A stretch of DNA of 64,000 bases, taken from NCBI RefSeq assembly GCF_024661895.1, contig NZ_CP102453.1, positions 2,356,001-2,420,000 of the forward strand, written 5' to 3'. Positions within the stretch are counted from its first letter, which is position 1. The number at the start of each line of letters is the position of its first letter. The notes below the pieces were generated by a model. That model was given only the letters and a program-made list of their open reading frames with translations. It was not told where the DNA came from and searched no databases. This DNA is from Fundicoccus culcitae. Lineage in GTDB: Bacteria; Bacillota; Bacilli; Lactobacillales; Aerococcaceae. This document shows positions 1,501 through 18,869 of the stretch, piece by piece. Made by a program: the position numbers and the translations under genes.

Positions 1501-1516
1501 AAGGTTGGCTTAAAAG

Positions 1517-2368
1517 ATGACGGATAAAAACAAATTTATTTCCAGATTAGCCGATAACCCTTTTTTGATAATGTCGCACCGGGGGTTCTGGGGAGGCAAT
1601 ATCATCCAAAATACAACCCAATCAGCTGACCTAGCCTATAGAGCAGGTTCAGATATTGTTGAGGTGGATGTATGTCGCTCATTGGATGGTGTCTATTATC
1701 TTTTCCATGATGGTGGTGAATTGGGTCTATTAGGTATTGATAAACACTTTTCACATTTAACATCTGATTTCATCGACAATGTTTCCGTGCTGAATACTTT
1801 AGGTACGCCATCTGGCTATCGAATTCAGCGCTTAAGTGAATTTCTTGAGTGGTTGCCTGACGATTCCTTGGTTAATATTGATCGTTCTTGGACATATTGG
1901 AATGATAAAGCCTTTTTTGACTTGTTGCACCATTCAGGTAAGGCAGAAAATTTATTATTAAAAAGTCCTGTTCAAGAAGAATGGTTAAGTAATTTAGAGA
2001 AAATGGCTCGAGGTATCGCTTATATGCCGATTGTTTATCAAAGAGAAGACGTTATCGCTGTTATGATGCGACATCAAGTTAACTTAGTTGGTGTTGAGAT
2101 AGTTGCACCTATTAATAATGATTTTTTAGATAGTAATTTATCTGTGGAACTAAAACAGCAACAGATACTGATTATGGCGAATGCAGAAAAATTAGGTGAG
2201 CATTTTGACTTATTCGTTGGATTGGATGACGATGCTTCTTTATTTAATCAAATAAATCAGGGATGGGATGCATATTTAAATCGAGGAATAGATATAATTC
2301 AGACAGACTGGCCGAATTTCATGAATGAATACAGACGTACGTATCAAAAAAGTGAGGTAAAGAGATGA
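1517..2368 (+). CDS. Glycerophosphodiester phosphodiesterase family protein
   Basis: Cytoplasmic GDPD-fold TIM-barrel protein of 283 residues with no signal peptide. The N-terminal family signature is present: MSHRG near residue 19, then DIVEVDVC near residue 46 and FHDGG near residue 64, which match the HRG...E.D...HD metal and catalytic residues of glycerophosphodiesterases. The central and C-terminal parts are divergent, so the substrate may differ from simple glycerophosphodiesters. The gene sits 16 bp after the ABC permease and overlaps the next gene by 4 bp (ATGA). This coupling suggests that the transporter, the phosphodiesterase and the downstream metallophosphoesterase act on one imported phosphate ester; that role is inferred. 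Confidence 0.82.
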   Translation: MTDKNKFISRLADNPFLIMSHRGFWGGNIIQNTTQSADLAYRAGSDIVEVDVCRSLDGVYYLFHDGGELGLLGIDKHFSHLTSDFIDNVSVLNTLGTPSGYRIQRLSEFLEWLPDDSLVNIDRSWTYWNDKAFFDLLHHSGKAENLLLKSPVQEEWLSNLEKMARGIAYMPIVYQREDVIAVMMRHQVNLVGVEIVAPINNDFLDSNLSVELKQQQILIMANAEKLGEHFDLFVGLDDDASLFNQINQGWDAYLNRGIDIIQTDWPNFMNEYRRTYQKSEVKR

Positions 2369-3249
2369 CATTAATGATGGATAGTAATAAAAGATTTAGA
2401 ATTGCACAGCTTACAGACATGCATCTAACGAATTTTCCATTTGATCAAAATGATGTGCAAATATTGCACGATGTAAAAAAGGCCGTTGAACATATTGAGC
2501 CTGATTTAATCATGATAACGGGTGATTTTGTTAATAGTTACAACAATGAGAATGAGCTTGAAATAGTAACCGCCTTTTTTGAGTTTTTGAATGAATTTGA
2601 TATTCCAAAAGCAATTACCTATGGTAACCATGATACAGAGCATAAATTGACTCGAAATGACCTTGAACAGTTATTTAATACGCTTGTTTCGAATAAAGTA
2701 AGTCGGGTTCATGAAAAAATGGTTGACGATCGAACGCAATATGTAGTGGAAATTAATAGCTCAGAAGGTTCACTGGCTCGCGTTTTATATGTAATGGATA
2801 CGGGTCATGTTGCGCCAGGTGAGGATAAGACAAATGACTGGATCCTTAGAGAGCAAGTGGAATGGTTTAGAGAAAGTTGTTCACAATATAAATCCCTAAA
2901 AAATAATTTATTATTTATTCATATTCCTATACCAGAGTATCTTCTTGCGAAGAAAAATATATTAAGTGGAGCCTTACTTGAACCCAATCAATTAATTTCA
3001 ACCAGTCGTATTAATACAGGCCTATTCTCCGAACTATTTTTCTCGCAACAAATTTATGGTGTTTTTTGCGGGCATAATCACCTAAACAATGCCGAAATGT
3101 TATGGGAAGACATTCATTTATTTTACGGTATGTTTTCTGGAAAAGAAGAAAAAGCCGGTGACTTTCGAGGCGTGCGCTATATTGATTTAGGCATTGAGGG
3201 AAATACAGTGAGTTCTGATTGCGTGTTCTTTAACGATTTAGTCGTTTAG
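2365..3249 (+). CDS. Metallophosphoesterase family protein
   Basis: Calcineurin-like phosphoesterase of 294 residues, probably cytoplasmic. The two-metal site motifs appear in order: QLTDMHL near residue 15, ITGDF near 52, YGNHDTE near 88, a lone HIP near 193 and CGHNH near 231. This set resembles class III cyclic-nucleotide phosphodiesterases and related phosphatases. The start overlaps the previous stop by 4 bp, so translation is coupled to the GDPD-like gene. It is the last gene before a strong terminator at 3280. A role in hydrolysing phosphodiesters or monoesters delivered by the ABC transporter is likely but not proven. Confidence 0.85.
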   Translation: MTLMMDSNKRFRIAQLTDMHLTNFPFDQNDVQILHDVKKAVEHIEPDLIMITGDFVNSYNNENELEIVTAFFEFLNEFDIPKAITYGNHDTEHKLTRNDLEQLFNTLVSNKVSRVHEKMVDDRTQYVVEINSSEGSLARVLYVMDTGHVAPGEDKTNDWILREQVEWFRESCSQYKSLKNNLLFIHIPIPEYLLAKKNILSGALLEPNQLISTSRINTGLFSELFFSQQIYGVFCGHNHLNNAEMLWEDIHLFYGMFSGKEEKAGDFRGVRYIDLGIEGNTVSSDCVFFNDLVV

Positions 3250-3279
3250 TTAGAAATATAATTTGCTGTTTAAACGGGC

Positions 3280-3311
3280 AACCCTACATGGATTTGTGGG
3301 GTTATTTTTTT
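3280..3311 (+). terminator. Rho-independent terminator after the phosphoesterase operon
   Basis: Inverted repeat AACCCTAC / GTGGGGTT around a short loop, followed by a run of seven Ts. It ends the ABC-GDPD-phosphoesterase transcript. Confidence 0.8.
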
Positions 3312-3330
3312 GGGTTAAACCAGGTGAAAA

Positions 3331-3381
3331 TTCACAAATGATATGATAATTATTGTGAACATTTGCAAATGATGCTATAAT
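3331..3381 (+). promoter_or_regulatory. Promoter with overlapping palindrome for the XRE/ImmA-like pair
   Basis: A -35 TTGTGA (3353-3358) and -10 TATAAT (3376-3381) are separated by 17 bp. An inverted repeat TTCACAA (3331-3337) / TTGTGAA (3353-3359) covers the -35 box, and the similar CAAATGATATGATAAT and CAAATGATGCTATAAT form a direct repeat. This fits autorepression by the XRE protein encoded immediately downstream (inference). Confidence 0.7.
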
Positions 3382-3399
3382 TCACCTGAAAGGATGGCG

Positions 3400-3735
3400 A
3401 TGATGATGAGAAGTGACCAAAATACGGTGAAAAATATTAAGCAGTGGCTATTAGATAATGATAAGACGCAATCGTGGTTAGCTGCAGAAATGGACATAGC
3501 CCCATCGTTAATTAGTCAATTATTTAGTGGCGCGCGAAAACTTCAACCGAATCATATTGAAAAATTTGCTGAAATTAGTGGTTTTACTATTTCCGAGCTG
3601 GCATCTACCTATGAACTGTCAAATGTAACACCCACCTATACTGTACGAGGTAAGGTTTCTAACCAACATGGCGAACACGCGTTGAACCAATTGTTACTTG
3701 ACGTTGAACACTTTGTTCAGCTAACGAATAAGTAG
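3400..3735 (+). CDS. XRE-family helix-turn-helix transcriptional regulator
   Basis: Small DNA-binding protein with one Cro/CI-type helix-turn-helix: TQSWLAAEMDIAPSLISQLF, roughly residues 24-43. It has a short hydrophilic tail and no further domain. In-frame ATGs lie at 3394, 3400, 3403 and 3406; the AAGGA site at 3390 touches 3394, so 3400 or 3403 gives proper spacing. A strong promoter with a palindromic operator precedes it. The ImmA/IrrE-like gene follows after 9 bp, an arrangement known from ICEBs1 ImmR-ImmA and from XRE-COG2856 toxin-antitoxin-like pairs. The likely role is autorepressor and partner of the downstream protein. Confidence 0.85.
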   Translation: MMMRSDQNTVKNIKQWLLDNDKTQSWLAAEMDIAPSLISQLFSGARKLQPNHIEKFAEISGFTISELASTYELSNVTPTYTVRGKVSNQHGEHALNQLLLDVEHFVQLTNK

Positions 3736-3744
3736 GTATTTATT

Positions 3745-4500
3745 ATGATGAAAATAACGAACAATCAAGTAGCAGAGATTGCAGATATTTATGCGAGTGT
3801 ATTTCTGAAAAAATATTTTGGAGAAGAAGTCTTTTTGGGTAGTGTCATTGAGCGCGTGCTGTCTAAAAAAGCCCATATTATTTATCAAAATGTCGATGAC
3901 CCATCCTATTATGGTGCAACTGTTCATATGCTAGACAAACAGATTATTGCAATAAATACCGCTCAACCTCTACGTATTCGCTACTATAGTGCTGCGCATG
4001 AGTTGTGGTATTTATTATATGACGCGGATGAGCTTCCAATTAAATACGATGGATTTGAGCATGAACGTGTTGCAGAACAATTTGCAACTAGGGTTATGTT
4101 ACCTGATGGGTTAGTTAGAACACTTTTGCGAATGATTGATGGAACCATCGAAAATAAAGTCATTGAAATTGCTGATCTATCTTCAATGCCTTATGTAATC
4201 GTAACGAATAGGTTGAAAGAATTGGGAGCAAGAGTTTCAGCAACTTTAATGGAGAGGGAAGAAGAGGATTGGATAAAAGTTAGAAAGCTCTTAGGTTACC
4301 CACCAAGTGTTTTGGATAAAAGCGATGCGTTTAAACAGTTTTGGGCATTATCCAAAGAGGTCGAGCAGCAGCTTGAAACGAAGGAGATTACTTTAGAAAT
4401 AGCAGCAAACTTGATTAAACATATTGATCCTGAGCAGGCAGAAAAATATTGGAAGCAAAGGCAGGATCTTCTTGATGATTGGAGTACTGAAGATGACTGA
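3745..4500 (+). CDS. ImmA/IrrE-family protein with an altered HExxH motif
   Basis: COG2856-type protein of 251 residues. Members are zinc proteases that cleave the partner XRE repressor. The expected zinc helix is present near residue 87 but reads HELWYLLYD, so the second histidine of HExxH is tyrosine. The downstream acidic region (ERVAEQFATRVMLP, near residue 111), which normally gives the third ligand, is kept. Catalysis is therefore probably lost, or one residue has mutated. The C-terminal part from about residue 165 is charged and not recognised. The gene is co-transcribed with the XRE regulator and followed by a terminator. The changed codons lie in GGTATTTATT, a one-base variant of the dispersed 10-mer of this window. 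Confidence 0.75.
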   Translation: MMKITNNQVAEIADIYASVFLKKYFGEEVFLGSVIERVLSKKAHIIYQNVDDPSYYGATVHMLDKQIIAINTAQPLRIRYYSAAHELWYLLYDADELPIKYDGFEHERVAEQFATRVMLPDGLVRTLLRMIDGTIENKVIEIADLSSMPYVIVTNRLKELGARVSATLMEREEEDWIKVRKLLGYPPSVLDKSDAFKQFWALSKEVEQQLETKEITLEIAANLIKHIDPEQAEKYWKQRQDLLDDWSTEDD

Positions 4501-4621
4501 TTCGAGGGGGAAAGTATTCGATCATTCTATAAAACGATAATCGTAGAATCTAAACATAGAGAATTTCAATTGAAACAGTTAGACATACGATTAGATAAAA
4601 TCTAGTTAATTTCGAAAAATT

Positions 4622-4658
4622 AAAGTGATTATCGCAGATAATGTGATAATTGCTTTTT
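4622..4658 (+). terminator. Rho-independent terminator after the ImmA-like gene
   Basis: Stem AAAGTGATTATC / GATAATTGCTTT with two G-T pairs, ending in six Ts. The rest of 4501-4826 is AT-rich. It holds AATAAATACC at about 4728, a variant of the dispersed motif, and no recognisable gene. Confidence 0.7.
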
Positions 4659-4826
4659 TGTTATTTTTACTTCTGTTTAACTTATTACTTCGAGAAATTT
4701 TCAAAATCTCCCACCCATCAATTTCTAATAAATACCAACTTTTTTAATCTTCCTCTAATTTAACTATTGATTTATTTTATCGTTTACGTTAAACTTCAAG
4801 AAACAAATCCTAAAGGAGGGGTCGAA

Positions 4827-6578
4827 GTGTTAAAAAGTAAATGGTTAAAATTGTCACTCGTAGTTTCGATGTTAGGGAGTACCTTTTCAGCCCGCGTTTT
4901 TGCGCAAGAAGAAACAGCTGTGTCGTTTGAGTCAAGTGTCGTTAACGAAGGCGAAGCAATTGAAGGTGGCACACTTCGATACGCCATAGTAGGAGATGCG
5001 TTTGCAGGGGTATTTAATGGGATGTATTATACGATGGGAGTTGACGGAACGATTATTTCCTTCTTCAACCCTGGTTTATATGGTTATGATGAAAACTTTA
5101 CCATTGATAATTCTGGTTTTGCCGATATTGAATTTGATCCGGACAATGCTCAGGTGACGATTACAATTCCTGAAGGAACGTTCTGGGATGATGGCGAACC
5201 GTTGGATATTGATGATGTCATTGCGCCTTATTATATCGTGGGCCATCCCGAATATGATGGGGTTAGATATGGTGTGGCTTTTACAAATGTGGTGGGTATG
5301 GAAGAATATAAAAATGGGGACACCGATGTTATTAGTGGACTTGAGCGGATTGATGATTACACCTTACGGGTCACTTACATTGATTTTACGGGGTCCATTT
5401 TACAAGCGGGTGGTGGGGTTTCCGATTATGTTGAACCTGAGCATATTTTAAGTGACATTCCAATAGCCGAAATTATCGATAGTGATCAAGTACGTCAAAG
5501 TCCGGTTGGTTTTGGTCCTTATACCTTAACATCGATTGTTCCAGGTGAAGCCGTAACGTTTGAAGCCAATGAAAATTATTATAAAGGGAAACCCTTAATC
5601 GATGAAATCGTCGTTGAAGTGGTCAGTCCTTCCCAAATTGTAGCCGAGTTAAAAGCCGGAAATTATGATATTGCTAGTTTACCCAGTGATCAATTTGAGA
5701 CCTATAAAGATGCGACCAACTTTGCCATTCTTGGGGTAGAGGCCAATTCTTACAATTATATTGGCTTTAAAATGGGTGTTTGGGATGAAGCTGCCGGGGA
5801 AGTGAATTTTGACCCTGACCGGGTGGTATCCAACCAAGCCTTCCGTCAAGCCATGGCCTATGCCATTGACAATGATTCCGTAGGCAGCCGTTTCTACCAA
5901 GGCTTACGTTTTAACGCCAATTCACACGTAACGCCAAACTTTGGCACCTTGCATAATCCGGACCAAGAAGGCTACCATTATGATCCTGAAAAAGCGAAAG
6001 CATTATTAGCTGAAGCCGGTTTTGTGGATAATGATGGGGATGGCTTTGTTGAAGATTTAAATGGGGAACCTTTTGTCTTAGGTTTTGCTGCTCCGACATC
6101 AGGTGAAGTTGCCGAAGTTATCGCCCAATACTACATTCAAGCCTGGCATGAAGTCGGTATAAATGTCGAGCTGGTCGATGGTAACCTTATGGAAACCAAC
6201 GCCTTCTATGAACGTGTCGAACAAGATGATCCAGCCATTGATGTCTTCCAAGGTGCTTGGACCATCGGTGGGGACCCGAATCAATATGGTTTCTTTGGAC
6301 GGGATCAATTCTGGAATGATAGCCGTTTTGCCGATGAGGAATTAGACGCCTTGCATGCACGGTTGAATTCGTCTGAAACCTTTGATGAAGCCTCACGAAT
6401 TGATATTTATTATGAATGGCAAGCTTATTTGATTGATCAAATTCCACTCTTGCCGACACTTTTTAACTATTCGCTCACGGCTGTCAATAACCGCGTCAGC
6501 GCCTACGACGTAACCACCGGCTCCGACTTAGATTGGACCGAAATTTACCTGCTCGCCGACGAGCCAATCGCTGAATAA
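4827..6578 (+). CDS. Peptide/nickel-type ABC transporter substrate-binding protein (SBP family 5)
   Basis: Extracellular OppA/DppA-like receptor of about 583 residues. The GTG at 4827 was chosen because AAAGGAGGGG lies 6 bp upstream and because it opens a clean signal peptide: basic KSKWLK, hydrophobic core, and signal peptidase I-type end RVFA|QEE near residue 26. There is no lipobox cysteine, which is unusual for a Gram-positive binding protein. Family-typical segments include FWDDGEPLDIDDV (about residue 122) and SPVGFGPYTL. No permease or ATPase gene is adjacent, so it may be an orphan receptor that shares a distant Opp transporter. A hairpin terminator follows. Confidence 0.88.
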   Translation: MLKSKWLKLSLVVSMLGSTFSARVFAQEETAVSFESSVVNEGEAIEGGTLRYAIVGDAFAGVFNGMYYTMGVDGTIISFFNPGLYGYDENFTIDNSGFADIEFDPDNAQVTITIPEGTFWDDGEPLDIDDVIAPYYIVGHPEYDGVRYGVAFTNVVGMEEYKNGDTDVISGLERIDDYTLRVTYIDFTGSILQAGGGVSDYVEPEHILSDIPIAEIIDSDQVRQSPVGFGPYTLTSIVPGEAVTFEANENYYKGKPLIDEIVVEVVSPSQIVAELKAGNYDIASLPSDQFETYKDATNFAILGVEANSYNYIGFKMGVWDEAAGEVNFDPDRVVSNQAFRQAMAYAIDNDSVGSRFYQGLRFNANSHVTPNFGTLHNPDQEGYHYDPEKAKALLAEAGFVDNDGDGFVEDLNGEPFVLGFAAPTSGEVAEVIAQYYIQAWHEVGINVELVDGNLMETNAFYERVEQDDPAIDVFQGAWTIGGDPNQYGFFGRDQFWNDSRFADEELDALHARLNSSETFDEASRIDIYYEWQAYLIDQIPLLPTLFNYSLTAVNNRVSAYDVTTGSDLDWTEIYLLADEPIAE

Positions 6579-6594
6579 ACTAAATATCACTGTT

Positions 6595-6636
6595 AAAGCC
6601 ATAGTCTGGCGTTCGTTTCCCAGGCTATGGCTTTTT
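6595..6636 (+). terminator. Rho-independent terminator; first copy of a 70-bp direct repeat
   Basis: Stem AAAGCCATAGTCTGG / CCAGGCTATGGCTTT followed by Ts. CTAAATATCACTG, a variant of the dispersed motif, precedes it. The stretch 6582-6652, including about 16 bp beyond the T run, recurs at 10048-10118 with few changes. Confidence 0.88.
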
Positions 6637-6772
6637 GGTGTGTAGACTATACATGTCATCTTCTTAAATAATCAGCGTTTATGAAAGACCTTTATGTATA
6701 ATGTTTTGTGAAGGAGATTTGGTATAATAAGATAATGAAAATATAAGACAGTTTATACTTGAAGGATTTAGG

Positions 6773-6786
6773 CAGGGATATTTATT
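6773..6786 (-). repeat. Dispersed AATAAATATCCCTG motif
   Basis: Exact 14-mer on the minus strand in the leader region before the PucR-type gene. TATAAT-like boxes at about 6697 and 6723 (the latter an extended TGGTATAAT) lie just upstream. Confidence 0.8.
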
Positions 6787-6870
6787 AAAGGGAATGAGCT
6801 GAAGAATTTAAATGGGATAGTATGATTTATGGAAAAGAATTGAAATAAGCAAATACTTGGAGGTATTAAG

Positions 6871-8427
6871 ATGAGACTTAATCTCAATATCATTTACGAT
6901 GAATTATCGGATTATGATTGTCAAATTATTGCTTCGGAAAATTTAGATTTAAACCTTAGAAACGTTTGTTATTTACCGTTAGAGCCTGAAAAGTTGCAAT
7001 CTGAGTATCTTTACTTAACAACAGCTGAAAAGATTAATGAGTATGGAAATATAAATGAATCAATTTCATTATTGTGTTTAGGGGAGCCGAAATTTGATAT
7101 TAGAAATAATAAATTAAATGTCATATTTTTTAATGAAAATCTGTCAGAACAATCAGTGTTCGAAAAATTACTTAAAATATTTGAAAAATATGAAGATTGG
7201 GAAAAAAGTATATTGTTGTCCATGGCAAATAATGAAAATTTACAAACCATATTTGATATTTCAACTAGTATGCTTATCAATCCAATTGCACTATGTGATC
7301 GTTATAATACAGTGGTTGTAAAGTCGAAAACATTCCCCGAAGATGTGCAAGGTTCTCCTTGGAAAGAAGCGTTTGAAAAAGGATATGTAACTGATGATGT
7401 TATGGAGAATGAAGAATACTTTGAGTTAAATCGATTAGTTGCGGAAAACAACACCCCTATTTTGTTCACAAGTCATTTAACTTTTCCGGGTCAAATACAG
7501 ATGGCAGCAAGAATACCTAGAGAAGGTGTACCTTTTGGCTATTTAGTTTCAACCGACTTTAATGGTGATTTCACAAAAGGCCAACTTTCTATTATATACT
7601 TCATACAAGACATTTTGAATCTGGCTTTGAAAAATAATTATTCAATGATTTCTGGAGAACAAGATTTATCTACCTTCTTTATCGAAAATATTATAAAAGG
7701 CTACGACATGGGAGAACGTTCGATTGCATATTTATTACAGCAATGGTCTTGGAAAGTAGATGATGAATATTCTTTATTGGTGTTTTATCCTATAGATGAT
7801 AAAGTATTAGACAAATCGATATTAAATATGCTAAAAAATCGTATTAAAGGATTATCCAAGAGTTCATTTGTATTCTCTTATGATAATAGTATTATAGCAA
7901 TCTTTCATAATAATAATAAAGAAAGTATAGCGAAAGATTATAGTGAACAACTGCAAGGTATTTTAGAAATAACAAATCTCCATTGCGCAGTAAGTATGAA
8001 TTTCCATAATTTCAAGTATATAAAGTATGCTTATCAACAATGTGGTATTATTAGAAACTTTTCAAACTTAAATCAACGGATTCATACGTTCGATGAAGTG
8101 TATACAGATTACTTTTTAAGTATTCTTGAAGAACAAACTGATTTAGCTAGTATGTGTAACCCAATTATTTTAAATCTCTATGAATCTGATAAGAATGGGA
8201 AAGATTTTATACAAAGTTTACAAGCGTACTTAGTTCATGGTCGCAGTATGACTGCAGCAGCAAATGCCCTTTTTATTCATCGCAATACGTTGATTTTTCG
8301 ATTAAGGAAGTTGGAGGAGTTGTTGAATTTAGATTTAAAAACAGTCAATGAGAATACTGCTTTAATGTTATACGTTTCTTGCCTAGTGGCCACGAATAAG
8401 TATAATCAACAGAAGGTTCACAATTGA
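6871..8427 (+). CDS. PucR-family transcriptional regulator
   Basis: Cytoplasmic regulator of 518 residues. The C-terminus carries the PucR/CdaR helix-turn-helix: GRSMTAAANALFIHRNTLIF around residues 455-474, followed by RLRKLEELLNLDL and a final helical segment. The middle part (about 270-400) fits the degenerate GGDEF-like region of this family; the N-terminal sensing region is not recognised. GGAGG precedes the ATG. PucR regulators usually activate neighbouring catabolic genes in response to a small molecule. Here the likely target is the O-demethylase-like gene 160 bp downstream on the same strand. The pair is bounded by duplicated terminators. Confidence 0.85.
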   Translation: MRLNLNIIYDELSDYDCQIIASENLDLNLRNVCYLPLEPEKLQSEYLYLTTAEKINEYGNINESISLLCLGEPKFDIRNNKLNVIFFNENLSEQSVFEKLLKIFEKYEDWEKSILLSMANNENLQTIFDISTSMLINPIALCDRYNTVVVKSKTFPEDVQGSPWKEAFEKGYVTDDVMENEEYFELNRLVAENNTPILFTSHLTFPGQIQMAARIPREGVPFGYLVSTDFNGDFTKGQLSIIYFIQDILNLALKNNYSMISGEQDLSTFFIENIIKGYDMGERSIAYLLQQWSWKVDDEYSLLVFYPIDDKVLDKSILNMLKNRIKGLSKSSFVFSYDNSIIAIFHNNNKESIAKDYSEQLQGILEITNLHCAVSMNFHNFKYIKYAYQQCGIIRNFSNLNQRIHTFDEVYTDYFLSILEEQTDLASMCNPIILNLYESDKNGKDFIQSLQAYLVHGRSMTAAANALFIHRNTLIFRLRKLEELLNLDLKTVNENTALMLYVSCLVATNKYNQQKVHN

Positions 8428-8586
8428 AAAAGTAGAATATCCTTACTTCATTTTCATTGTGCAAACGCTATATTTTTTATCATATAATTTTTCATTGTTT
8501 GTACCTAGACCTTAAAAATTTGCTTTGTTATCATGAAATTACAATAATTAATGATCAAATTAAATTTATTTATAGGAGGAAAAGCA

Positions 8587-10014
8587 ATGAACAGAGACTA
8601 TGAGAATAAGTATTTGATTCCAACAGATCAAATGGAGTTGAATTCTAATCAACAGATGCATACAAGTCCTTATATGCCATTTACACATGGAGGGTATATT
8701 TACGAAATTAGAGGTAATGACGATTTTATCACTCCTTCGGAGTATACTGACTGGCGTGATGAATCTTTGTCATGGCATTACACTGCGTCGATTCATGAAG
8801 GTCTTAATCCTATGTCCGCAATAAGGATCAAGGGGCCAGAAGCCGTTAAATTTCTGAAAGAAAATTTTGTTAACAATTTTGATAAATTCCCTTTAAATTC
8901 TAGTAAGCACGGTGTCATATGTACACCAGAAGGTTACATTGCTATCCATGGTGTTTTACAACGTCATGCTGAAGACGAATTTCTTGCGCTTGGGTTTGCG
9001 CCGTATATAGACTATTTGTGGCAAAAAGGTAATTATGATGCCAATTATGAAGATTTGACGGGTAAAGTAATTTTCTTCCAACTACAAGGTCCTCGTAGTT
9101 TAGAGTTATTAGAGGAAGTGACTAATGATGACTTGCACGATATTAAATTTATAAGATTTAAAGATAGTAGTGTGGATGAAAAACCAGTAAAAGTTCTTCG
9201 GTTTGGAATGTCAAATGGCTTAGGTTACGAATTGTATTGTAATGTAGAAGATTCTCAAGAGATATATCTTAAAATTATGGAAATTGGTAGAAAATATGGG
9301 CTTCGCCGCTTAGGACGCAAATCATATTTTTTAAATCATACACCTGGTGGAAGCCAACAACTGATGCTTCACTTCATGCCTGGAACAATGACTGATACTG
9401 ATTTTGCTCAGTTTGCTCAAACGCAGTCTCAAGTTGATGGGTCGTTAGCGAAGAATGTTATGTCATTTAGAATCAATGGCAGTCTTGGAGAGGAAAACAT
9501 AGGTGAAACACTCGTCAGTCCATTTGAAATAGGCTTAGGTAAAGTAGTAGATTTTAATAAGGGCAATTTCCATGGACGTGATGCGCTATTAGCGAAAAAA
9601 GAAGAAAATAATCGTGATATTTGTACATTAAAATGGAATGCAGACGACGTAGTAGACATTTTTGCTTCACAATTCCGTGAAGGTGAAGAAATGTATGATC
9701 GCATTGATAACCCACAAATCCTTAGTTATGCAAATGGTGGTTCAGAGCTTGAGTTTTTAAGAGTATTGGACTTAGATGGAAATGAAATCGGATATTGTGG
9801 AGGACGTACTCAAAGTCCATACCATAGAGCGATGCTTTCCGCTGGCGTTATTAAGAAAGACTTCATCAAAGAAGAAAATGAGGTCATTATAGTTTGGGGT
9901 GAAGTTGGTTCGAAACAAAAGAAAGTAAGAGCAACAATAGCTCCATTCCCTTACAATAAGCATTTGGAAAACAGAACCTTCGATATTGAATCAATTCCGC
10001 GTCGCTCTAATTAA
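8587..10014 (+). CDS. GcvT-like aminomethyltransferase family protein, LigM/DesA-type O-demethylase homologue
   Basis: Predicted tetrahydrofolate-dependent methyltransferase of 475 residues, close to the length of vanillate and syringate O-demethylases LigM and DesA. AGGAGG just upstream selects the ATG at 8587. Matches to the folate-binding GcvT fold include FFQLQGPRSLELLE, FGMSNGLGYELYC, SPFEIGLGKVVDFNKGNFHG and a C-terminal segment ending in VIIVWGE...VRATIAPFPY that I recall as LigM-like. GcvT glycine-cleavage proteins are about 100 residues shorter and lie with gcvH/gcvP, which are absent. The probable reaction is transfer of a methyl group from a methoxylated or methylated donor to tetrahydrofolate; the donor is unknown. 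The upstream PucR-type gene probably controls it. Confidence 0.78.
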   Translation: MNRDYENKYLIPTDQMELNSNQQMHTSPYMPFTHGGYIYEIRGNDDFITPSEYTDWRDESLSWHYTASIHEGLNPMSAIRIKGPEAVKFLKENFVNNFDKFPLNSSKHGVICTPEGYIAIHGVLQRHAEDEFLALGFAPYIDYLWQKGNYDANYEDLTGKVIFFQLQGPRSLELLEEVTNDDLHDIKFIRFKDSSVDEKPVKVLRFGMSNGLGYELYCNVEDSQEIYLKIMEIGRKYGLRRLGRKSYFLNHTPGGSQQLMLHFMPGTMTDTDFAQFAQTQSQVDGSLAKNVMSFRINGSLGEENIGETLVSPFEIGLGKVVDFNKGNFHGRDALLAKKEENNRDICTLKWNADDVVDIFASQFREGEEMYDRIDNPQILSYANGGSELEFLRVLDLDGNEIGYCGGRTQSPYHRAMLSAGVIKKDFIKEENEVIIVWGEVGSKQKKVRATIAPFPYNKHLENRTFDIESIPRRSN

Positions 10015-10044
10015 GATCTTTTGTTAACACCGTCCTTACTAAAA

Positions 10045-10058
10045 AATAAATATCCCTG
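10045..10058 (+). repeat. Dispersed AATAAATATCCCTG motif between stop and terminator
   Basis: Exact 14-mer, 31 bp after the stop codon of the O-demethylase-like gene and immediately before the terminator stem. Confidence 0.85.
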
Positions 10059-10060
10059 TT

Positions 10061-10102
10061 AAAGCCATAGTCTGGAGCTCGTTCCCCAGGCTATGGCTTT
10101 TT
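10061..10102 (+). terminator. Rho-independent terminator; second copy of the 70-bp direct repeat
   Basis: Almost the same hairpin as at 6595-6636 (stem AAAGCCATAGTCTGG / CCAGGCTATGGCTTT). The identical sequence continues past the Ts through GGTGTGTAGACTATAC. Confidence 0.88.
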
Positions 10103-10112
10103 GGTGTGTAGA

Positions 10113-10598
10113 CTATACTTTTTGCTCATAATATCGTCGATGCAAGTCTTTCATCGTGTCAGCCCATTCTAGAACGGGTCCGTCGACGGCTGTGTCGGTG
10201 ATGACGGCTTGAATAGGGCGACTAATGACACGGGATGTGCGTTCGATGCCCAATTCGTCAAGCCATTCATTCAGTTGTTGGCTTGAACTGACGTAGACAA
10301 TGCGTCCCAAGCCAGCCATACCATGCGCAGCAGCGCACATGGGGCAGTGTTCCCCCGATGTATAAACGGTCGCTTGGGCTCTTTCCTCGGGAGACAGGTG
10401 CTGACCTGCCCAGCGCACAATGTTGAATTCCGGATGTTGGGTATTGTCACCTTCTGCAATGTGATTATGATCTTCAAATAAAATATCGCCGTTTCTCGAT
10501 ACTAAAACTGACCCGAAAGGTTGGTCCCCTTTAGCTAAGGCTTCTGAGGCTAAGTCAATGCAACGTTGTAAGTACGGTTTATCTTTTTCGGTAATCAT
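10113..10598 (-). CDS. Nucleoside deaminase, CMP/dCMP-type zinc-binding fold
   Basis: Zinc-dependent deaminase of the cytidine/guanine/tRNA-adenosine deaminase superfamily, 161 residues, cytoplasmic. The active-site pattern is visible: HPE at residues 55-57 gives the zinc histidine and catalytic glutamate, and CPMC at 85-88 gives the two cysteines. QPFGSVLV near residue 26 is typical of guanine deaminase-like members. The C-terminal RYYEQ also suits that subgroup. The gene is single and convergent with the O-demethylase-like gene, sharing the hairpin region between them. The exact base substrate cannot be set from sequence alone. Confidence 0.88.
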   Translation of the reverse strand: MITEKDKPYLQRCIDLASEALAKGDQPFGSVLVSRNGDILFEDHNHIAEGDNTQHPEFNIVRWAGQHLSPEERAQATVYTSGEHCPMCAAAHGMAGLGRIVYVSSSQQLNEWLDELGIERTSRVISRPIQAVITDTAVDGPVLEWADTMKDLHRRYYEQKV

Positions 10599-10691
10599 AG
10601 GTTTTGCCCCCTTTTAGTCCTATAGTAGCGGATGTTGGATGGTAGGTCAAAGGAAGGGGATTTGATATAATAATGAAGAAGGAGTGTTGGC

Positions 10692-11183
10692 ATGGATATT
10701 TATTATCGGGAAGCAGAGTTGAAGGATTTAGATCGGATTATGGAAATTGAGCAGGCGGGCTTTACGGCGGATGAGGCAGCATCGCGGTCAGCGATGGAGG
10801 AGCGGATTGCTTTGATTCCGGATACCTTTGTGGTGGCGGTAAATGCCGATGGCGCGATTTTGGGGTATGCAGTTGGGCCGGTAGTGGAGCAGCGGTATTT
10901 ATTTGATGAGTTGTTTGAAAAGATCGAGGCAAACCCGGTGAGTGGCGGGTTTGTGAGTTTGTTGAGTGTAGCGGTGGCGCCGGAGTTCGCTGGAGCGGGC
11001 GTTGCCAGTGGGTTGTTGGGGGAAGTGGAACGGCGGGCACGGTTGGCGGGGCGTGAGGGAATCACGTTGACGTGTTTGGCGGACTTGATTGGATTTTATG
11101 AGAAGAACGGCTATGTGAATGAAGGCGTGTCAGCGTCGGAGCATGCGGGTGAGGTTTGGTATAATTTGGTGAGGGAGTTGTGA
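10692..11183 (+). CDS. GNAT-family N-acetyltransferase
   Basis: Acetyl-CoA-dependent acetyltransferase of 163 residues. The GNAT core is visible: the N-terminal YYREAELKDLDRIMEIE, the beta-4 strand FVSLLSVAVAP near residue 87 and the pyrophosphate loop EFAGAGVASGLL near residue 99. The C-terminus DLIGFYEKNGYVNEG is the usual beta-6/beta-7 part. Spacing of these elements resembles the arylalkylamine acetyltransferase-like group of small bacterial enzymes; the acceptor is unknown. GGAG lies 10 bp before the ATG. GATATTTATT, the dispersed motif core, overlaps codons 2-5. Confidence 0.9.
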   Translation: MDIYYREAELKDLDRIMEIEQAGFTADEAASRSAMEERIALIPDTFVVAVNADGAILGYAVGPVVEQRYLFDELFEKIEANPVSGGFVSLLSVAVAPEFAGAGVASGLLGEVERRARLAGREGITLTCLADLIGFYEKNGYVNEGVSASEHAGEVWYNLVREL

Positions 11184-11257
11184 GTTAAATGATTGGAAGG
11201 GAGTACTTAGAAAAAGTAAATTTAATACAGATATTTATTTAAAGGGGGTTGAGAGGT

Positions 11258-11611
11258 GTGATTTATGTTGTTTTCGAAGTGGTTATCAAGGCTAACTGTA
11301 TGGATAATTACCTTAGGATTGTAAGTGATTTGAAGGGAGAACTTAATAAGGTGAAGGGGTTTGTTCGCTCGGAGCGTTTCCAGAGTCTGGCGACTGAGAA
11401 CAAGTTGCTTAGTCTTTCTTTGTGGGAAAGTGAAGAGGCGGTGAATACGTGGCGGAATCAGGTGGAACATCGATTGAGTCAGCGAGTAGGGCGGGATTCA
11501 ATTTTTGAAAGTTATCAGATAAGCGTGTTGTCCTCCATTAGATCTTATGGCGATGATGATAGGAGGGAAGCGCCGGCGGATAGCAATGTATTTATTTTTG
11601 GAGAGAATTGA
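11258..11611 (+). CDS. Antibiotic biosynthesis monooxygenase (ABM) domain protein
   Basis: Small ferredoxin-like alpha+beta protein of about 117 residues. The ABM signature is the opening strand YVVFEVVIKAN, the helix that ends with GFVRSERFQS, and LLSLSLWESEEAVNTW near residue 50. Members include heme-degrading and quinol monooxygenases, but most are uncharacterised. GTG at 11258 is preferred because AAAGGGGG lies about 9 bp upstream; a TTG at 11249 is possible. A YciI-like gene follows within 11 bp, so the two are probably co-transcribed. The tail after residue 90 is extended and not recognised. Confidence 0.8.
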   Translation: MIYVVFEVVIKANCMDNYLRIVSDLKGELNKVKGFVRSERFQSLATENKLLSLSLWESEEAVNTWRNQVEHRLSQRVGRDSIFESYQISVLSSIRSYGDDDRREAPADSNVFIFGEN

Positions 11612-11621
11612 GGAGGGCTTT

Positions 11622-11933
11622 ATGTCGACAAATAAGGAACAATTTATATACGTTTTGAAATTAATCCCGGCTTTGTTAAATGAGGGGAACTGGACCGAAC
11701 TTGAGGAGCAGATTGTGGGGAGACATTTTTCGAGATTGGAGGCGTTGCTTGCTGAAGGTAAGTTGGTTTTAGCGGGGAAAACTCAGGGGCTGGATGAGAA
11801 GTCTTTTGGGATAGTTATATTGGAAGTTGAAGATGAAGCGTCAGCTGTGGCTATCATGCAAAGTGACCCAGCTGTAGCCGAAGGGATTATGACGGCGGAG
11901 TTATTTCCTTATAGGGTTGCGTTAAGTAAGTGA
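11622..11933 (+). CDS. YciI-family protein
   Basis: Ferredoxin-fold protein of 103 residues. The ATG at 11622 is selected by GAGGAGGG 7 bp upstream. Features of the YciI/DGPF family are the opening strand QFIYVLKLIP, the conserved-position histidine in GRHFSRLEALLAEGKLVLAG, and the C-terminal DPAVAEGIMTAELFPY, which resembles the family DPF-V-AGL-...-E-PF pattern. Family members are thought to be small enzymes or binding proteins; no reaction is assigned. It follows the ABM gene closely. A long repeat-rich gap starts after its stop. Confidence 0.82.
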   Translation: MSTNKEQFIYVLKLIPALLNEGNWTELEEQIVGRHFSRLEALLAEGKLVLAGKTQGLDEKSFGIVILEVEDEASAVAIMQSDPAVAEGIMTAELFPYRVALSK

Positions 11934-12305
11934 AAGGATGGAAATGGTTAGTTAGGTGTAATCGTAATAGCTACCTGATGAGGGATGGGTTAGTGATTTG
12001 AGCAATTAGAGATTTAATAAGGGTAGATATTTTCTGAGTGCTTGGTTTGGTTTGACAATTTGAGGGCTTTTAATCTCGGTTCTGTCCAAATTTTGTTTGG
12101 TTTTGGCCAGAGTAAGTCTATTCTGTCCATTTTTCTAAGTGTTTCCGACGTATTTTCTATGAGCGCCAAGCGAAAAAAAATCGAAAAAAGCCAATCTAAC
12201 GTTTGCTAACTAGTTTCACGTCAGAATAGCCCAATTTAAAATTAATATAAAAGTCTCCACCTACCCCGTAAGTAGGAAATGAATTATCCTACGGACTTAC
12301 CCACC
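11934..12305. other. Intergenic stretch without a recognised gene
   Basis: First part of a 900-bp gap at a convergent gene junction. It holds scattered TTCTGTCCA modules related to the repeats at about 49000 and a partial palindrome GTAAGTAGGAAATGAA...GACTTAC at about 12268-12300. No terminator with a clear T run is visible. Confidence 0.5.
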
Positions 12306-12378
12306 GCGAGACAAATTAGATTGAAATTGTCGTGCGCTATTTCGTCGCGAGACAAATTAAGTCGAAATTGTCGTGCGC
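12306..12378. repeat. Tandem palindromic repeat, GACAAATT family (2 units)
   Basis: Two copies about 40 bp apart, each carrying GACAAATT and AATTGTC as inverted arms. The same family forms the five-unit array at 29521-29727. Confidence 0.75.
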
Positions 12379-12387
12379 TGGTGCAGC

Positions 12388-12423
12388 GTAAGTGGGAAGT
12401 GAAGAACCATCATTCTCACTTAC
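12388..12423. repeat. Palindromic element GTAAGTGGGAAGTGA / TCTCACTTAC
   Basis: One 36-bp hairpin unit. Related full or half copies (consensus half TTCACTTCCCACTTA) occur near 25741, 26015, 34982, 35095, 35346, 35568, 35657, 49156, 52809, 53056, 63880 and 63940, usually at the edge of another array. Confidence 0.75.
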
Positions 12424-12427
12424 ATGG

Positions 12428-12589
12428 GCGCACACATATTGGAGCATTTGTTGTGAGCGCGACCCTGGGCGCACACATATTGGAGTGTTTGTTGTGAGCG
12501 TGACCCTGGGCGCACACATATTGAGGCGTTTGTTGTGAGCGCGATGGGGGGCGCACACATATTGAGGCGTTTGTTGTGAGCGCGACCCT
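12428..12589. repeat. Tandem palindromic repeat, GCGCACACATATTG family (4 units)
   Basis: Four units of about 41 bp. Each begins GCGCACACATATTG and ends TTGTTGTGAGCGC, which form imperfect inverted arms. The same family makes the ten-unit array at 18330-18742. Confidence 0.85.
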
Positions 12590-12629
12590 GAGCAGGAAAA
12601 GTGTGCTATTAAATAAACTACAAATTAGG

Positions 12630-12711
12630 CTATTCGGTCATGAAATCAGGTGCTTGGTGACCGATTAGCCTTATTCGGTCACGAAATCAGGTATTTGGTG
12701 ACCGATTAGCT
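12630..12711. repeat. Tandem palindromic repeat, TTCGGTCATGAAAT family (2 units)
   Basis: Two units 40 bp apart, each with arms TTCGGTCA and TGACCGA. Single or paired copies recur at 25765-25890, 35297-35338 and 48880-48920. Confidence 0.8.
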
Positions 12712-12734
12712 TTATTTAACGTTCGCTCACTTCC

Positions 12735-12815
12735 CGCGCCCACACCCCGCGTGCCTTCCCAACAAAACGAAGTCCCGCGCCTACACCCCGCGTGCCTTCC
12801 CGCCAAAACGAAGTC
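12735..12815. repeat. Tandem direct repeat CACACCCCGCGTGCCTTCCC (2 units)
   Basis: Two near-identical units with a 41-bp period, ending just before the stop codon of the ABC ATPase gene on the minus strand. No clear palindrome is seen in this family. Confidence 0.7.
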
Positions 12816-12836
12816 CCGCGCTCCAAGCCCACAAGC

Positions 12837-13874
12837 CTACCCCGCGACAGCCCGCAAGCCTACGCGTTCGCCAACCTCATAAACATCGGTAAAGGGTCGT
12901 TGGACAAGGATTGTTTGGCCATTTAGATTCAAGGAGTAATGGTATTCCTTACCTTGGAACTGGCGGGTCAAGACTTCAGCCGTCAAGTCGTTAAGGGCAA
13001 CGTCGGTTAACTCAATTTGGTCTGGCCGTAAGGCATAAATCCCGCTAGCCTTCAAAGCGTCTGTTGTACCAACATTGGCTAACACCACCGAACTGTCTGC
13101 CACATGAAAAGCATCGCCTTCCCACCAACCTCTAAAAATATTGGCTTTGCTCACAAACGTCGCCACAAATTCGGTTTCAGGGCGATAGAAGATATCTTCA
13201 GGCGTTCCCACCTGTTCAATCCGCCCCTTGTTCATCACGACAATTCGGTCAGCCATGGCCAAGGCTTCCCCTTGGTCGTGGGTCACGTAAACAATCGTAG
13301 CGCCGGTAATTTGATGCAAACGCTGAATTTCACGACGCATCTCAATCCGCAACTCAGCATCCAGAGCACTTAAAGGTTCATCCATCAACAACAATTGCGG
13401 TTCGGTCGCAATCGCGCGCCCTAAAGACACCCGTTGTTTTTGCCCGCCCGATAATTCATGGGGGTAGGCCTCGCCCTTATCCTGCAAATTAATAATCTCC
13501 AACACATCCCCCACGCGCTGAGACATGTTTTGCTTCAACTCATAAGCAGCAAACTGGTCGTAGCGCAAGGGGAATTTAATGTGGTCAGCGACCGTCATGT
13601 GCGGCCATAAAGCAAAGCCTTGGAAGACCATCGACACGTCGCGTTTTTCAGGGGGAACGGAAAAGGAAGCATCGGCGACGGCAGTGTTATTTATTTCAAT
13701 GGTCCCAGAAGTTGGGGACTCAAAGCCGGCCAACATCCTCAAAAGCGTCGTTTTCCCGCAACCGGAAGGACCGAGGATCGCAATAAACTCGCCATCTTCA
13801 ATCGCTAAATTAATATCATACAGCGCTTGGAAATCGCCAAACTTTTTAGTCACATCAACAACATTTGTACTCAT
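12837..13874 (-). CDS. ABC transporter ATP-binding protein, FbpC/PotA type
   Basis: Energising subunit of an importer, 345 residues. It has Walker A GPSGCGKTT (35-43), Q-loop MVFQGFALWPHMTV near 82, signature LSGGQKQR (141-148), Walker B LLLMDEP (161-167) and H-loop THD near 198. The C-terminal 100 residues form the TOBE-like regulatory domain common to Fe3+, spermidine and phosphonate importers. Its start overlaps the permease stop by 4 bp (ATGA). It is the last gene of the operon surE, binding protein, permease, ATPase. Confidence 0.93.
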   Translation of the reverse strand: MSTNVVDVTKKFGDFQALYDINLAIEDGEFIAILGPSGCGKTTLLRMLAGFESPTSGTIEINNTAVADASFSVPPEKRDVSMVFQGFALWPHMTVADHIKFPLRYDQFAAYELKQNMSQRVGDVLEIINLQDKGEAYPHELSGGQKQRVSLGRAIATEPQLLLMDEPLSALDAELRIEMRREIQRLHQITGATIVYVTHDQGEALAMADRIVVMNKGRIEQVGTPEDIFYRPETEFVATFVSKANIFRGWWEGDAFHVADSSVVLANVGTTDALKASGIYALRPDQIELTDVALNDLTAEVLTRQFQGKEYHYSLNLNGQTILVQRPFTDVYEVGERVGLRAVAG

Positions 13875-15601
13875 TTATTCACGACCTTTCTATTCCACAT
13901 CCATTGAAACAACAGCAACAATCCATAGGCCCCGATAATCAAGATGACGATTAAACTGGAAAAAGCCGTTGAATACAAGGTATAGCCCGATTGTTGGAAA
14001 CTCAAAATGGACACGCCGATGGTTTCCGAATTGGAAGAATACAACAAGGAAGACACCGTCAATTCTGTTAAAGCGCTCAAAAAGACTAACAAGGATCCGC
14101 CAATGACGGTCGGCGTAATTAAGGGCAACAAAATCCGCCGCCACTTGCCAAAGCCATTGGTACCGCCCACCCGGGCGGCTTCTTCCACCGAAGGGTCAAT
14201 TTGCTGAAAGGCCGAAATCCCCGACCGCACCTGCAAAATCAGAAAACGCGTCATATAAGCGATGTACAAAATCGTCATCGACCCATAAATCCCCGGAAAC
14301 CAGCCCGGTAAAGGTTGCATCCAAGCAAAAATCATCGATAGGGCAAAAACCGTTCCGGGCAAAGCGTAAGGCAAAGTCACCGCCAACTCCAAAGCCTGCG
14401 ATAACCGCGTGTTTTTTCGCACCCGATAATAAGCAATCGCCGTTCCAAGCACCAGCGTCACCAAAGCCGTCACCCCGGCCAACCGCAAACTCACCCCAAT
14501 CGCATCTGTCGTCGACGGGCTGGTCAAAATAAACCGATAATTATCCAGCGTCAAATTCTCCGGCGTAAAACTCAAACCATACGCCCGCAAAAACGGCGTC
14601 ATAATCATGGAAATCAAAGGCAAAACCGTAGTAAGGGCAAAAAACCCAAAAATAAATATCTCTACCACAATCCGCTTCTTACCTAGAAACACCCGCGGCT
14701 CGTAGTCAATCGTTCCCGTTTCTAACCGCCGCGAACGACGCAAAGCAAACCATTGTAGCAGCATGCCGACAACCGCAATCAAGCCAAGAATGACAGACAA
14801 AACCGCGGCCCGATTAAAAGCGGTCACTCCAAAACCGATGACTTGTTGATAAATATAAGTGGTTAAGACAGAGATATTTGCTGGGGTACCTAAAAAGGCC
14901 GGAATCCCAAAATTGTCTAAACTACTTAAAAAGGCAATGAACATGCCCCCGACAATGCCCGGCAAGGCCATCGGCACGGTAATTTTTCTAAAAGTCTGCC
15001 AAGTCGACGCCCCCGAAATGCGGGCTGCAAATTCATCCTCGCGCGGTATTTGCCGAAAGGTATTTATTGTAAAAAGATAGACCAAGGGAAAAGTCGAAAT
15101 CCCCATGACCGCAATGATGCCCGACATACTATATAAATTCCAGCTGGGCACATGGTCCATAAATAATTCAAAAAAGCGTTGCAGAGTGCCGTTGAATCCG
15201 AAAAATTGTACCCAGGCTAGCGATAGCACATAGGAGGGAATGACAAACGGCAACAAAATTAATAATTGAATTAGTTTTTTAAAGCGAATATCCGTGTAAG
15301 CGACAATCCAAGCAAACAGCACGCCTAAAATCGTCGCGACCGTCATGGAGCCTAAAATCATCACTAAGGTATTGCGCAAAACATTCCAGGTGCGCTTGGA
15401 TGACAGAATATCCTGGAAAAAACTAAGGGTAAAACCATCCTCACCCATCACACTCATTAATGCCAGGCGCAAAGTAGGCAGGATAAAGAAAAAGAACACC
15501 AACACAACCACAACCGCCACAACTAGCTTTCGCATAAAAGGAAGAGAGGAAACCGCATGAAGCTGCGGTTTCCTCTGCTTATTTGAGTGATTCATCGTCA
15601 T
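13871..15601 (-). CDS. ABC transporter permease, fused two-domain FbpB type
   Basis: Membrane permease of 576 residues with about twelve hydrophobic segments arranged as two six-helix halves. Each half has an EAA loop: DEFAARISGASTWQTF in the first half and EEAARVGGTNGFGKW near the end. It works with the adjacent ATPase (4-bp overlap downstream) and the secreted binding protein 11 bp upstream. A gap-free fusion of two permease domains is typical of ferric-ion, thiamine and aminoethylphosphonate importers; the substrate stays open. AATAAATATCTCT, the dispersed motif, occurs at 14651. Confidence 0.92.
   Translation of the reverse strand: MTMNHSNKQRKPQLHAVSSLPFMRKLVVAVVVVLVFFFFILPTLRLALMSVMGEDGFTLSFFQDILSSKRTWNVLRNTLVMILGSMTVATILGVLFAWIVAYTDIRFKKLIQLLILLPFVIPSYVLSLAWVQFFGFNGTLQRFFELFMDHVPSWNLYSMSGIIAVMGISTFPLVYLFTINTFRQIPREDEFAARISGASTWQTFRKITVPMALPGIVGGMFIAFLSSLDNFGIPAFLGTPANISVLTTYIYQQVIGFGVTAFNRAAVLSVILGLIAVVGMLLQWFALRRSRRLETGTIDYEPRVFLGKKRIVVEIFIFGFFALTTVLPLISMIMTPFLRAYGLSFTPENLTLDNYRFILTSPSTTDAIGVSLRLAGVTALVTLVLGTAIAYYRVRKNTRLSQALELAVTLPYALPGTVFALSMIFAWMQPLPGWFPGIYGSMTILYIAYMTRFLILQVRSGISAFQQIDPSVEEAARVGGTNGFGKWRRILLPLITPTVIGGSLLVFLSALTELTVSSLLYSSNSETIGVSILSFQQSGYTLYSTAFSSLIVILIIGAYGLLLLFQWMWNRKVVNK
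14651..14660 (+). repeat. Dispersed AATAAATATC motif inside the permease gene
   Basis: Exact core followed by TCTA, antisense to the minus-strand gene. Confidence 0.75.
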
Positions 15602-15612
15602 AATGAAAGCTC

Positions 15613-16632
15613 TTATTGGGCAAATAAATCATCAAATTGTTGTTTGTCAGCATCACGATTTTGGAATAATTCATTCATATCAGCTGATAAAACAGTATCT
15701 AACTCTTCAGCAGTACGTAACCCTTCAGGTGCTTCAACCCCATTACGGATCGGTGCATAACCTAAATCAGCTTGTAATTGTTGACCCGCTTCAGATAAAA
15801 CAAAGTCAACAAAGGTTTGAGCAATTTCAACTTCTTGAGTGGCGCTCATAATACCGATGGGTTCAGTAATAACCGGCACACCTTCTTCAGGATAAACAAA
15901 GGCCACAGGCGAACCATTGTTCATCGCACGGATAGCCAAGTAATCCACGATCATACCATAACTCATTTGACCAGAAGCCACGTTTTCAACCACGGCACCA
16001 TTACCTTCAGTAATCATTGGGCTATTGGCTTGTAAAGCTTCATAAAATTCCCAACCAAAACCTTCAGAACGTGTTAACACGCCTAAGTTGTAAGCAGCCG
16101 CACCAGAATATAAGGGGCTAGGCATAACGACTTGTTCAGCATTGGCTTCGTCGGTTAAAGCAGACCATGAAGTAGGGGCTTCTTCAACGTTGTCCGTATT
16201 GTAAACAATCCCCGTTGTCATAATTTTAGTTCCCGCATAGAAGTTATCGGCATCCACAAAAGCCGGATCAATCGCTTCGGCTTCAGGTGAAGCATATTCT
16301 AATAACATATCTTGCTCTTTGAACGATTCAAAGGTTACGGCATCCGCTAATAAAATCACGTCGGCTAACACTTCACCCGCGGTTGCTTCTGCATTGATTT
16401 TGCTAACAACTTCTTCGGTTCCAGAACGGAAGATATTTACTGTTACATTTGGGAATAATTCATTGTAAGCAGCCACTAATTGTTCAGCATCCACGTCTGG
16501 TTGTGATGTATAAAATTCAATTTCGCCTTCAAGTGATTCGTTGACTTCTTGGGCCGAAACCGCCACATTGGTTGCTAAAATTGAGCTTAATAGTAAACTA
16601 GTAACCGCTAGACGTTTTACAAATTTTTTCAT
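15613..16632 (-). CDS. ABC transporter substrate-binding protein, family 1 (FbpA-like)
   Basis: Secreted solute receptor of 339 residues. The signal peptide is MKKFVKRLAVTS plus a hydrophobic core, with a peptidase I-type end VSA|QE near residue 27 and no lipobox cysteine. The mature protein opens with GEIEFYTSQPD, has the PTSWSALTDE hinge segment and VVMPSPLYSGAAAYNLG near residue 165, a pattern of ferric/phosphonate-type receptors. The paired tyrosines that bind iron in FbpA are not obvious (MSYGMIVDY only), so iron is not assigned. Its start overlaps the end of surE by 4 bp; the ribosome site GGAGG lies within surE. Confidence 0.9.
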   Translation of the reverse strand: MKKFVKRLAVTSLLLSSILATNVAVSAQEVNESLEGEIEFYTSQPDVDAEQLVAAYNELFPNVTVNIFRSGTEEVVSKINAEATAGEVLADVILLADAVTFESFKEQDMLLEYASPEAEAIDPAFVDADNFYAGTKIMTTGIVYNTDNVEEAPTSWSALTDEANAEQVVMPSPLYSGAAAYNLGVLTRSEGFGWEFYEALQANSPMITEGNGAVVENVASGQMSYGMIVDYLAIRAMNNGSPVAFVYPEEGVPVITEPIGIMSATQEVEIAQTFVDFVLSEAGQQLQADLGYAPIRNGVEAPEGLRTAEELDTVLSADMNELFQNRDADKQQFDDLFAQ

Positions 16633-17402: not shown

Positions 17403-17555
17403 TGAGAGCACCTCCAAAAACTAAAAGATTTCCTACTCAACTAGTTTAACAAGCGAATGTAAATTTCTTGTTTAATTCAAGTTAAGATAATGTAAATGCA
17501 AAATCGCCTGATTTTTGATAGGATTAGCTAATTAAGGAAAGGGTGTGGACACAGG

Positions 17556-18299: not shown

Positions 18300-18329
18300 G
18301 TGAGTTGTTGTGAGCGCGGCGCTGGGCAG

Positions 18330-18742: not shown

Positions 18743-18808
18743 TTACAATTGGTTCCATTTTGAGTAACTTATTCTTTATTGTCGTTGTTGGGTAATTATG
18801 AAAGAGGT

Positions 18809-18855
18809 AAAACCCGTAAATATCTCGGAATTTCTGAGATGCTTACGGGTTTTTT
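18809..18855. terminator. Bidirectional hairpin terminator
   Basis: Stem AAACCCGTAA..ATCTC / GAGAT..TTACGGGTTT with Ts on both strands. It ends the minus-strand ABC operon and protects the array side. Confidence 0.8.
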
Positions 18856-18869
18856 GGTTTAAAAAATCA

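Follow-up and report, generated by a model that had tools for sequence, protein, structure and literature searches.

Two terminator copies flanking a PucR/LigM-like gene pair in Fundicoccus culcitae, and a decayed gene start beside one of them: a probable scar of gene gain

Why should nearly the same transcription terminator stand on both sides of a two-gene segment? This question is raised by a locus of Fundicoccus culcitae (contig NZ_CP102453.1) at which a gene for a PucR-type regulator and a gene resembling those of the aryl O-demethylases LigM and DesA lie between two almost identical hairpins. The locus was studied within a stretch of 64,000 nucleotides, here called the window, to which all coordinates refer. 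The initial annotation, made from the letters of the window, had described near-identical direct repeats at 6582-6652 and 10048-10118 and had proposed that the segment between them could have been inserted with duplication or could be excised by recombination between the copies. The order of features along the locus is oppA, terminator, remnant of an acetyltransferase gene start, PucR-type gene, LigM-like gene, terminator, deaminase gene and acetyltransferase gene, as detailed below.

4827..6578, + strand: oppA, gene of an oligopeptide-binding protein (SBP_bac_5, Opp4A-like), the left neighbour; PF00496 208.6 bits, NF045467 548 bits with a cut-off of 650; the start at 4827 is assumed, the frame being open from 4767
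6577..6652, + strand: terminator repeat, copy 1; 71/76 bases as in copy 2, hairpin z -5.15
6595..6634, + strand: hairpin of copy 1, entering the T run, from folding
6710..6835, + strand: putative decayed copy of the promoter region and start of the acetyltransferase gene, collinear with 10653-10746
6871..8427, + strand: gene of the PucR-type regulator, 518 aa; PF13556 (HTH_30) 59.6 bits, cut-off 27
8587..10014, + strand: LigM/DesA-like gene, a member of the aminomethyltransferase family; 475 aa when read from the ATG at 8587, the frame being open from 8551; PF01571 106.9 bits, NF047885 188.7 bits with a cut-off of 580, structure 5x1i at E 5.3e-39
10043..10118, + strand: terminator repeat, copy 2, with the deaminase stop codon; 71/76 bases as in copy 1
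10061..10100, + strand: hairpin of copy 2, from folding
10113..10598, - strand: convergent gene of the deaminase family, 161 aa; PF00383 50.6 bits
10653..10746, + strand: intact counterpart of 6710-6835, made up of intergenic sequence and the acetyltransferase gene's first 55 bases, from alignment
10692..11183, + strand: gene of a GNAT acetyltransferase; PF00583 40.4 bits

The two terminators are in direct orientation, 3466 bases apart from start to start. The repeat is real: within the limits first proposed 67 of 71 bases agree. The unit starts earlier, at 6577 and 10043, and the likeness resumes past a gap (see below). The differences between the copies are found at unit positions 4, 13, 34, 36 and 42, that is, in the 5' flank and in the loop. 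The final 34 bases are identical, including the T run and 16 bases past it, and constitute the longest exact match between the copies. Excision by recombination between the copies is at most a possibility, given that they differ at 5 of 76 bases. The earlier argument that a repeat reaching 16 bases past the T run exceeds what termination needs is upheld by this identical end. On the + strand both copies fold more stably than shuffled sequences (z -5.15 for copy 1 and -5.31 for copy 2, 0/200 shuffles each), and the corresponding values for the - strand are -3.78 and -4.17. In each copy a stable stem leads into a short T run, as is expected of intrinsic terminators. Neither hairpin appears among the 18 sites (17.6 expected) that a simple terminator scan gave for 1-20000, because the scan permits loops of 3-8 only. 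The deaminase gene, which is convergent, has its stop codon within copy 2; copy 1 has an identical tail and no deaminase gene. In a search of 6000-11000 against Rfam, a single match was obtained, far under its gathering score, and was rejected.

With respect to copy number, recurrence of the terminator at unrelated loci would have spoken against a local event, and it was observed for one end of the unit only. The whole 76-base unit is present at two places only in the 3.22-Mb genome, and its 3' arm plus tail also occurs twice at up to 3 mismatches. Within the window, a 21-base pattern covering the T run and the remainder of the unit occurs twice at up to 3 mismatches (0/100 shuffles). The first 17 bases, in contrast, are found at 23 genome places, both copies included, at up to 2 mismatches (reversed control 0), and ten more partial genome matches to the unit, at E up to 1, are all inside unit positions 1-35. 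A dispersed motif, to which we return below, accounts for the further occurrences of the repeat's left end but not for the duplication of the whole terminator. Repeated 34-mers are no rarity in the window (276 on the + strand), and among the positions listed (the first 60) the terminator pair alone precedes 12425.

The likeness past the gap, at 6710-6835 and 10653-10746, involves the start of the acetyltransferase gene. A local alignment of 6761-6824 with 10678-10742 scored 55, the maximum in 500 shuffles being 33 (0/500 as good); under a second scoring scheme the values were 34 and 31. Upstream of this piece, 19 of 21 bases match between 6710-6730 and 10653-10673, a result equalled by 0/1000 shuffles for a nearby target and by 7/1000 for a larger one. 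The collinear chain extends to 6835 and 10746 (shuffles as good: 0/1000 for 6790-6870 and 3/1000 for 6787-6870), and 6825-6870 taken alone shows nothing beyond the end of the chain (482/1000 shuffles as good). When genomic chunks were used as controls, the plain score was 64 and the control maximum 38 in 944 chunks (0/944). The second block holds one copy of the dispersed motif. With the motif neutralised, the chain scored 59.5, and none of 1884 overlapping control chunks from the genome exceeded 45.5; when the motif is counted as plain mismatches, single blocks alone score, and the best of them, at 32, is reached by 6/944 chunks. The case for a second block is carried by the collinear chain, single pieces being weaker. 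The best non-self genome match of 6653-6870 is 10678-10738 (79%, E 7.6e-6; 40 of 158 first-look candidates scored), and 34 of the 38 other listed genome matches to 6653-6870 lie inside the stretch around the dispersed motif.

Both blocks occur in the same order and orientation on either side of the gene pair. The left copy of the acetyltransferase start has lost its start codon and its frame is broken. The two blocks have diverged to different degrees, the terminators being 93% alike and the acetyltransferase piece about 79%. A remnant of the deaminase gene was sought in 6653-6706 and no significant one was found (263/1000 shuffles as good). Judged from these alignments, the terminators are most likely what is best preserved of a larger direct duplication, whose intact copy (10043-10746) would measure about 700 bases. 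The PucR/LigM-like pair was probably once flanked on each side by terminator, deaminase gene and acetyltransferase start, and the deaminase gene has since been lost from the left set.

Two simpler ideas were discarded. A chance likeness of two terminators is rejected because of the identical tail, which goes beyond the needs of termination, together with the collinear second block; a target-site duplication of 70 bp is excluded, since the intact copy of the duplicated segment is about 700 bases long. It could also be proposed that the gene pair is an old resident and that the terminator alone was copied, for instance by gene conversion, the acetyltransferase-like piece being due to chance or to an independent origin. 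This proposal can appeal to the terminators being much more alike than the second block and to the motif copy that the block includes, but the chain is significant with the motif neutralised (0/1884 chunks) and coincides with the best genome match, and the tail past the T run is identical yet unnecessary for termination. We regard it as quite improbable.

The explanation that we consider probable is a single-crossover integration, in which the gene pair arrived joined to a copy of a host segment and the left copy of that segment then decayed. The ancestor would have had the order oppA, terminator, deaminase, acetyltransferase. The incoming molecule, a circle or a concatemer, would have consisted of the gene pair plus a copy of the segment from the terminator through the deaminase gene to the acetyltransferase start, and one homologous crossover would have left one copy of the segment on each side of the pair (about 6836-10042). 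In the redundant left copy, the deaminase gene would then have been lost and the acetyltransferase start would have decayed, whereas the terminator would have been retained behind oppA under selection. The contrast between 93% for the terminator and about 79% for the acetyltransferase piece would fit such selection. We infer the single crossover itself, the direction and order of events, and the selection on the terminator; what is observed is two repeat blocks with a shared order and orientation, a whole unit that matches at no third place in the genome, and the patchy distribution of the LigM-like gene.

Campbell-type integration by a single crossover leaves direct repeats. At this locus, direct repeats of one host segment flank the insert in two collinear blocks, the right copy being intact and the left one ending at the insert. 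What departs from the standard case is the decay of the left copy, and between the copies neither a vector nor a replication gene is seen. If this reading holds, the gene gain is of an ordinary kind, and the interest of the locus is that it can still be read, the scar being visible as a retained terminator and the decaying start of a neighbour gene. The idea of insertion with duplication is strengthened by the decayed collinear acetyltransferase start beside copy 1 and by the lack of the LigM-like gene in 75 other genomes of the family; the empty site which it predicts was, however, not encountered. A deaminase match is present in 14 of 76 family genomes, the own genome included, the genus being represented in the set by one species. 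Neighbourhoods of 7-17 kb were read for 11 of the 13 others, two weak or broken matches being omitted, and 0 of these 11 contain a match to this oppA. The further proposal that the deaminase gene was formerly the neighbour of oppA, in the order oppA-terminator-deaminase, gains support from the larger duplication.

The unequal divergence of the two blocks also speaks against a single integration, since separate events are possible. The main rival places a tandem duplication first: terminator, deaminase and acetyltransferase genes would have been duplicated in tandem and the pair would later have entered the left copy by an unrelated route. The final map would be nearly identical and the differing divergence of the blocks would be easily accommodated. 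This course demands two events plus a further deletion, and the 28 bases between the LigM-like stop codon and copy 2 offer no space for the remaining left acetyltransferase gene; we hold it to be rather unlikely. Much less credible still is a mobile element, whether one that leaves a long duplication of its target site or one that uses the terminator as a specific attachment site. Some mobile elements do target terminators, and direct repeats at either end of a two-gene segment could suggest one. However, the segment between the copies has two ORFs of 100 aa or more, which belong to Pfam HTH_30 and GCV_T, with no transposase or recombinase, and the duplicated segment measures about 700 bases in its intact copy. 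Moreover, viral_contigs contains no exact match to the final 29 bases of the unit, and the unit has no match in phages; one plasmid record matches it, over 21 bases only.

If single-crossover integration did take place, its cargo is the gene pair. The PucR-type protein has a C-terminal HTH_30 domain over the cut-off (59.6 vs 27 bits), as PucR regulators do, and a weak GGDEF_2-like middle; its N-terminal half has no Pfam match at E up to 5. The NCBIfam models of the PucR regulators AdeR, CdaR and PmfR match it at 24-48 bits, all three far under their cut-offs. The second protein resembles the tetrahydrofolate-dependent aryl O-demethylases LigM and DesA, and the solved LigM structure 5x1i is matched over residues 49-457. 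It scores, nevertheless, 188.7 bits with NF047885 and 169.7 with NF047633, the equivalog cut-offs being 580 and 800, and so falls outside the LigM equivalog of vanillate/3-O-methylgallate O-demethylases. Because these scores are far below the cut-offs, its substrate may differ from those of LigM and DesA, and on similarity grounds we take the gene to encode not LigM itself but a putative demethylase of another methylated compound.

The LigM-like gene is patchily distributed. At E 1e-20 it is present in 1 of 76 family genomes, its own, the 75 other family members showing no such gene, and in 2 of 295 sampled genomes of the order, own included, the other being a 29% partial match. At E 1e-40 it is found in 6 of 398 sampled genomes of the phylum, again with its own included. 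Of the 5 neighbourhoods read around these other homologues, 3 contain a PucR relative (L252, L254 and L256); in L256 the regulator gene is directly upstream and on the same strand, as in the window, and in L254 the regulator match is split across two overlapping frames and the LigM frame was excluded by the ORF filter. This may mean that the two genes travel together. Searches with the LigM-like protein gave 54 stretches of genome_contigs that fit a pattern, 0 of them confirmed, and 298 plasmid records, all with less than 60% identity (30-34.5% for the best ten). The G+C content of the insert is 0.328, compared with 0.486 for the deaminase gene, 0.535 for the acetyltransferase gene, 0.436 for oppA and 0.381 for a 200-kb genome sample. 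When 50 window ORFs are ranked by third-position G+C, the PucR-type gene comes third and the LigM-like gene fifth from the bottom; since other window ORFs are similar, the low G+C argues only weakly for insertion.

The dispersed motif at the left end of the repeat is a more surprising feature than the scar of gene gain. Its core, AATAAATATCNCTG, is exact in copy 2 (10045-10058) and one base off in copy 1. The genome contains 202 exact copies, 108 forward and 94 reverse (reversed control 0), and each of the 75 other family genomes contains 0 or 1. In 264 kb, composed of the window and the 200-kb genome sample (L133-L142) and occupied by ORFs to 87%, the full motif occurs 18 times and the 10-mer AATAAATATC 72 times; 12 and 29 of these occurrences, respectively, lie at least partly outside ORFs. 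The 72 copies of the 10-mer compare with 4.9 expected, and most one-base neighbours of the 10-mer are near expectation. Variants in excess are those with C (33 vs 3.3 expected) or A (10 vs 4.2) at the ninth base, with C (11) or G (12) at the second base, where under 2 are expected, and with A at the tenth base (12 vs 4.5). Seven of 58 window ORF ends have the 17-base form within 70 bases at up to 3 mismatches, in six cases followed by a hairpin as judged by eye. Several window copies of AATAAATATCNCTG are directly after stop codons, ahead of hairpins.

The DNA uptake sequences of Neisseriaceae and Pasteurellaceae are short, exist in hundreds of copies on both strands, are in excess outside genes and often lie beside terminators. 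The motif is similar in all these respects, its 202 copies falling in the range of hundreds. It differs in its host, which is of another kind, probably a low-G+C Gram-positive, and in that exact 10-mer pairs within 60 bases, as in the inverted-pair terminators formed by uptake sequences, number 0 in 264 kb. An imperfect inverted pair of the motif was seen at L037 1501-1532 (G000:C1 near 2024359), between two convergent ORFs and, by eye, in a hairpin. The genome contains ComEC, the sole competence gene sought. Copy number and sharpness resemble those of uptake signals, but a site for protein binding or chromosome organisation is equally likely. It is a speculative and improbable thought that AATAAATATCNCTG is uptake-signal-like or self-propagating in a lineage outside the proteobacterial families in which such signals are known and that recombination at motif-tagged gene ends brings in cassettes such as PucR/LigM.

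A 19-base pattern of the motif matched 101 stretches of genome_contigs; the 80 listed come from unrelated phyla, with two in one genome and one in each of the others, and appear chance-like. A motif pattern gave 33 stretches in viral_contigs, with one match each. Among the publication titles listed, none was on the motif, which is no proof of absence. Other repeats were also noticed. Long exact direct repeats are present in the window at 12425-12585 and from 18348 on (among the matches listed), and its high-copy words include GCGCACACATAT and CGCTCACAACA. The words TGCCGGACGTCG and GACAGAATAG, over-represented in the window and the 200-kb sample, could belong to other repeat families. Among the 11 matches listed for another genome of the family (G043:C1), 9 have the sequence AATTTCACTGTTAAA, which may be a related dispersed word of a different genus.
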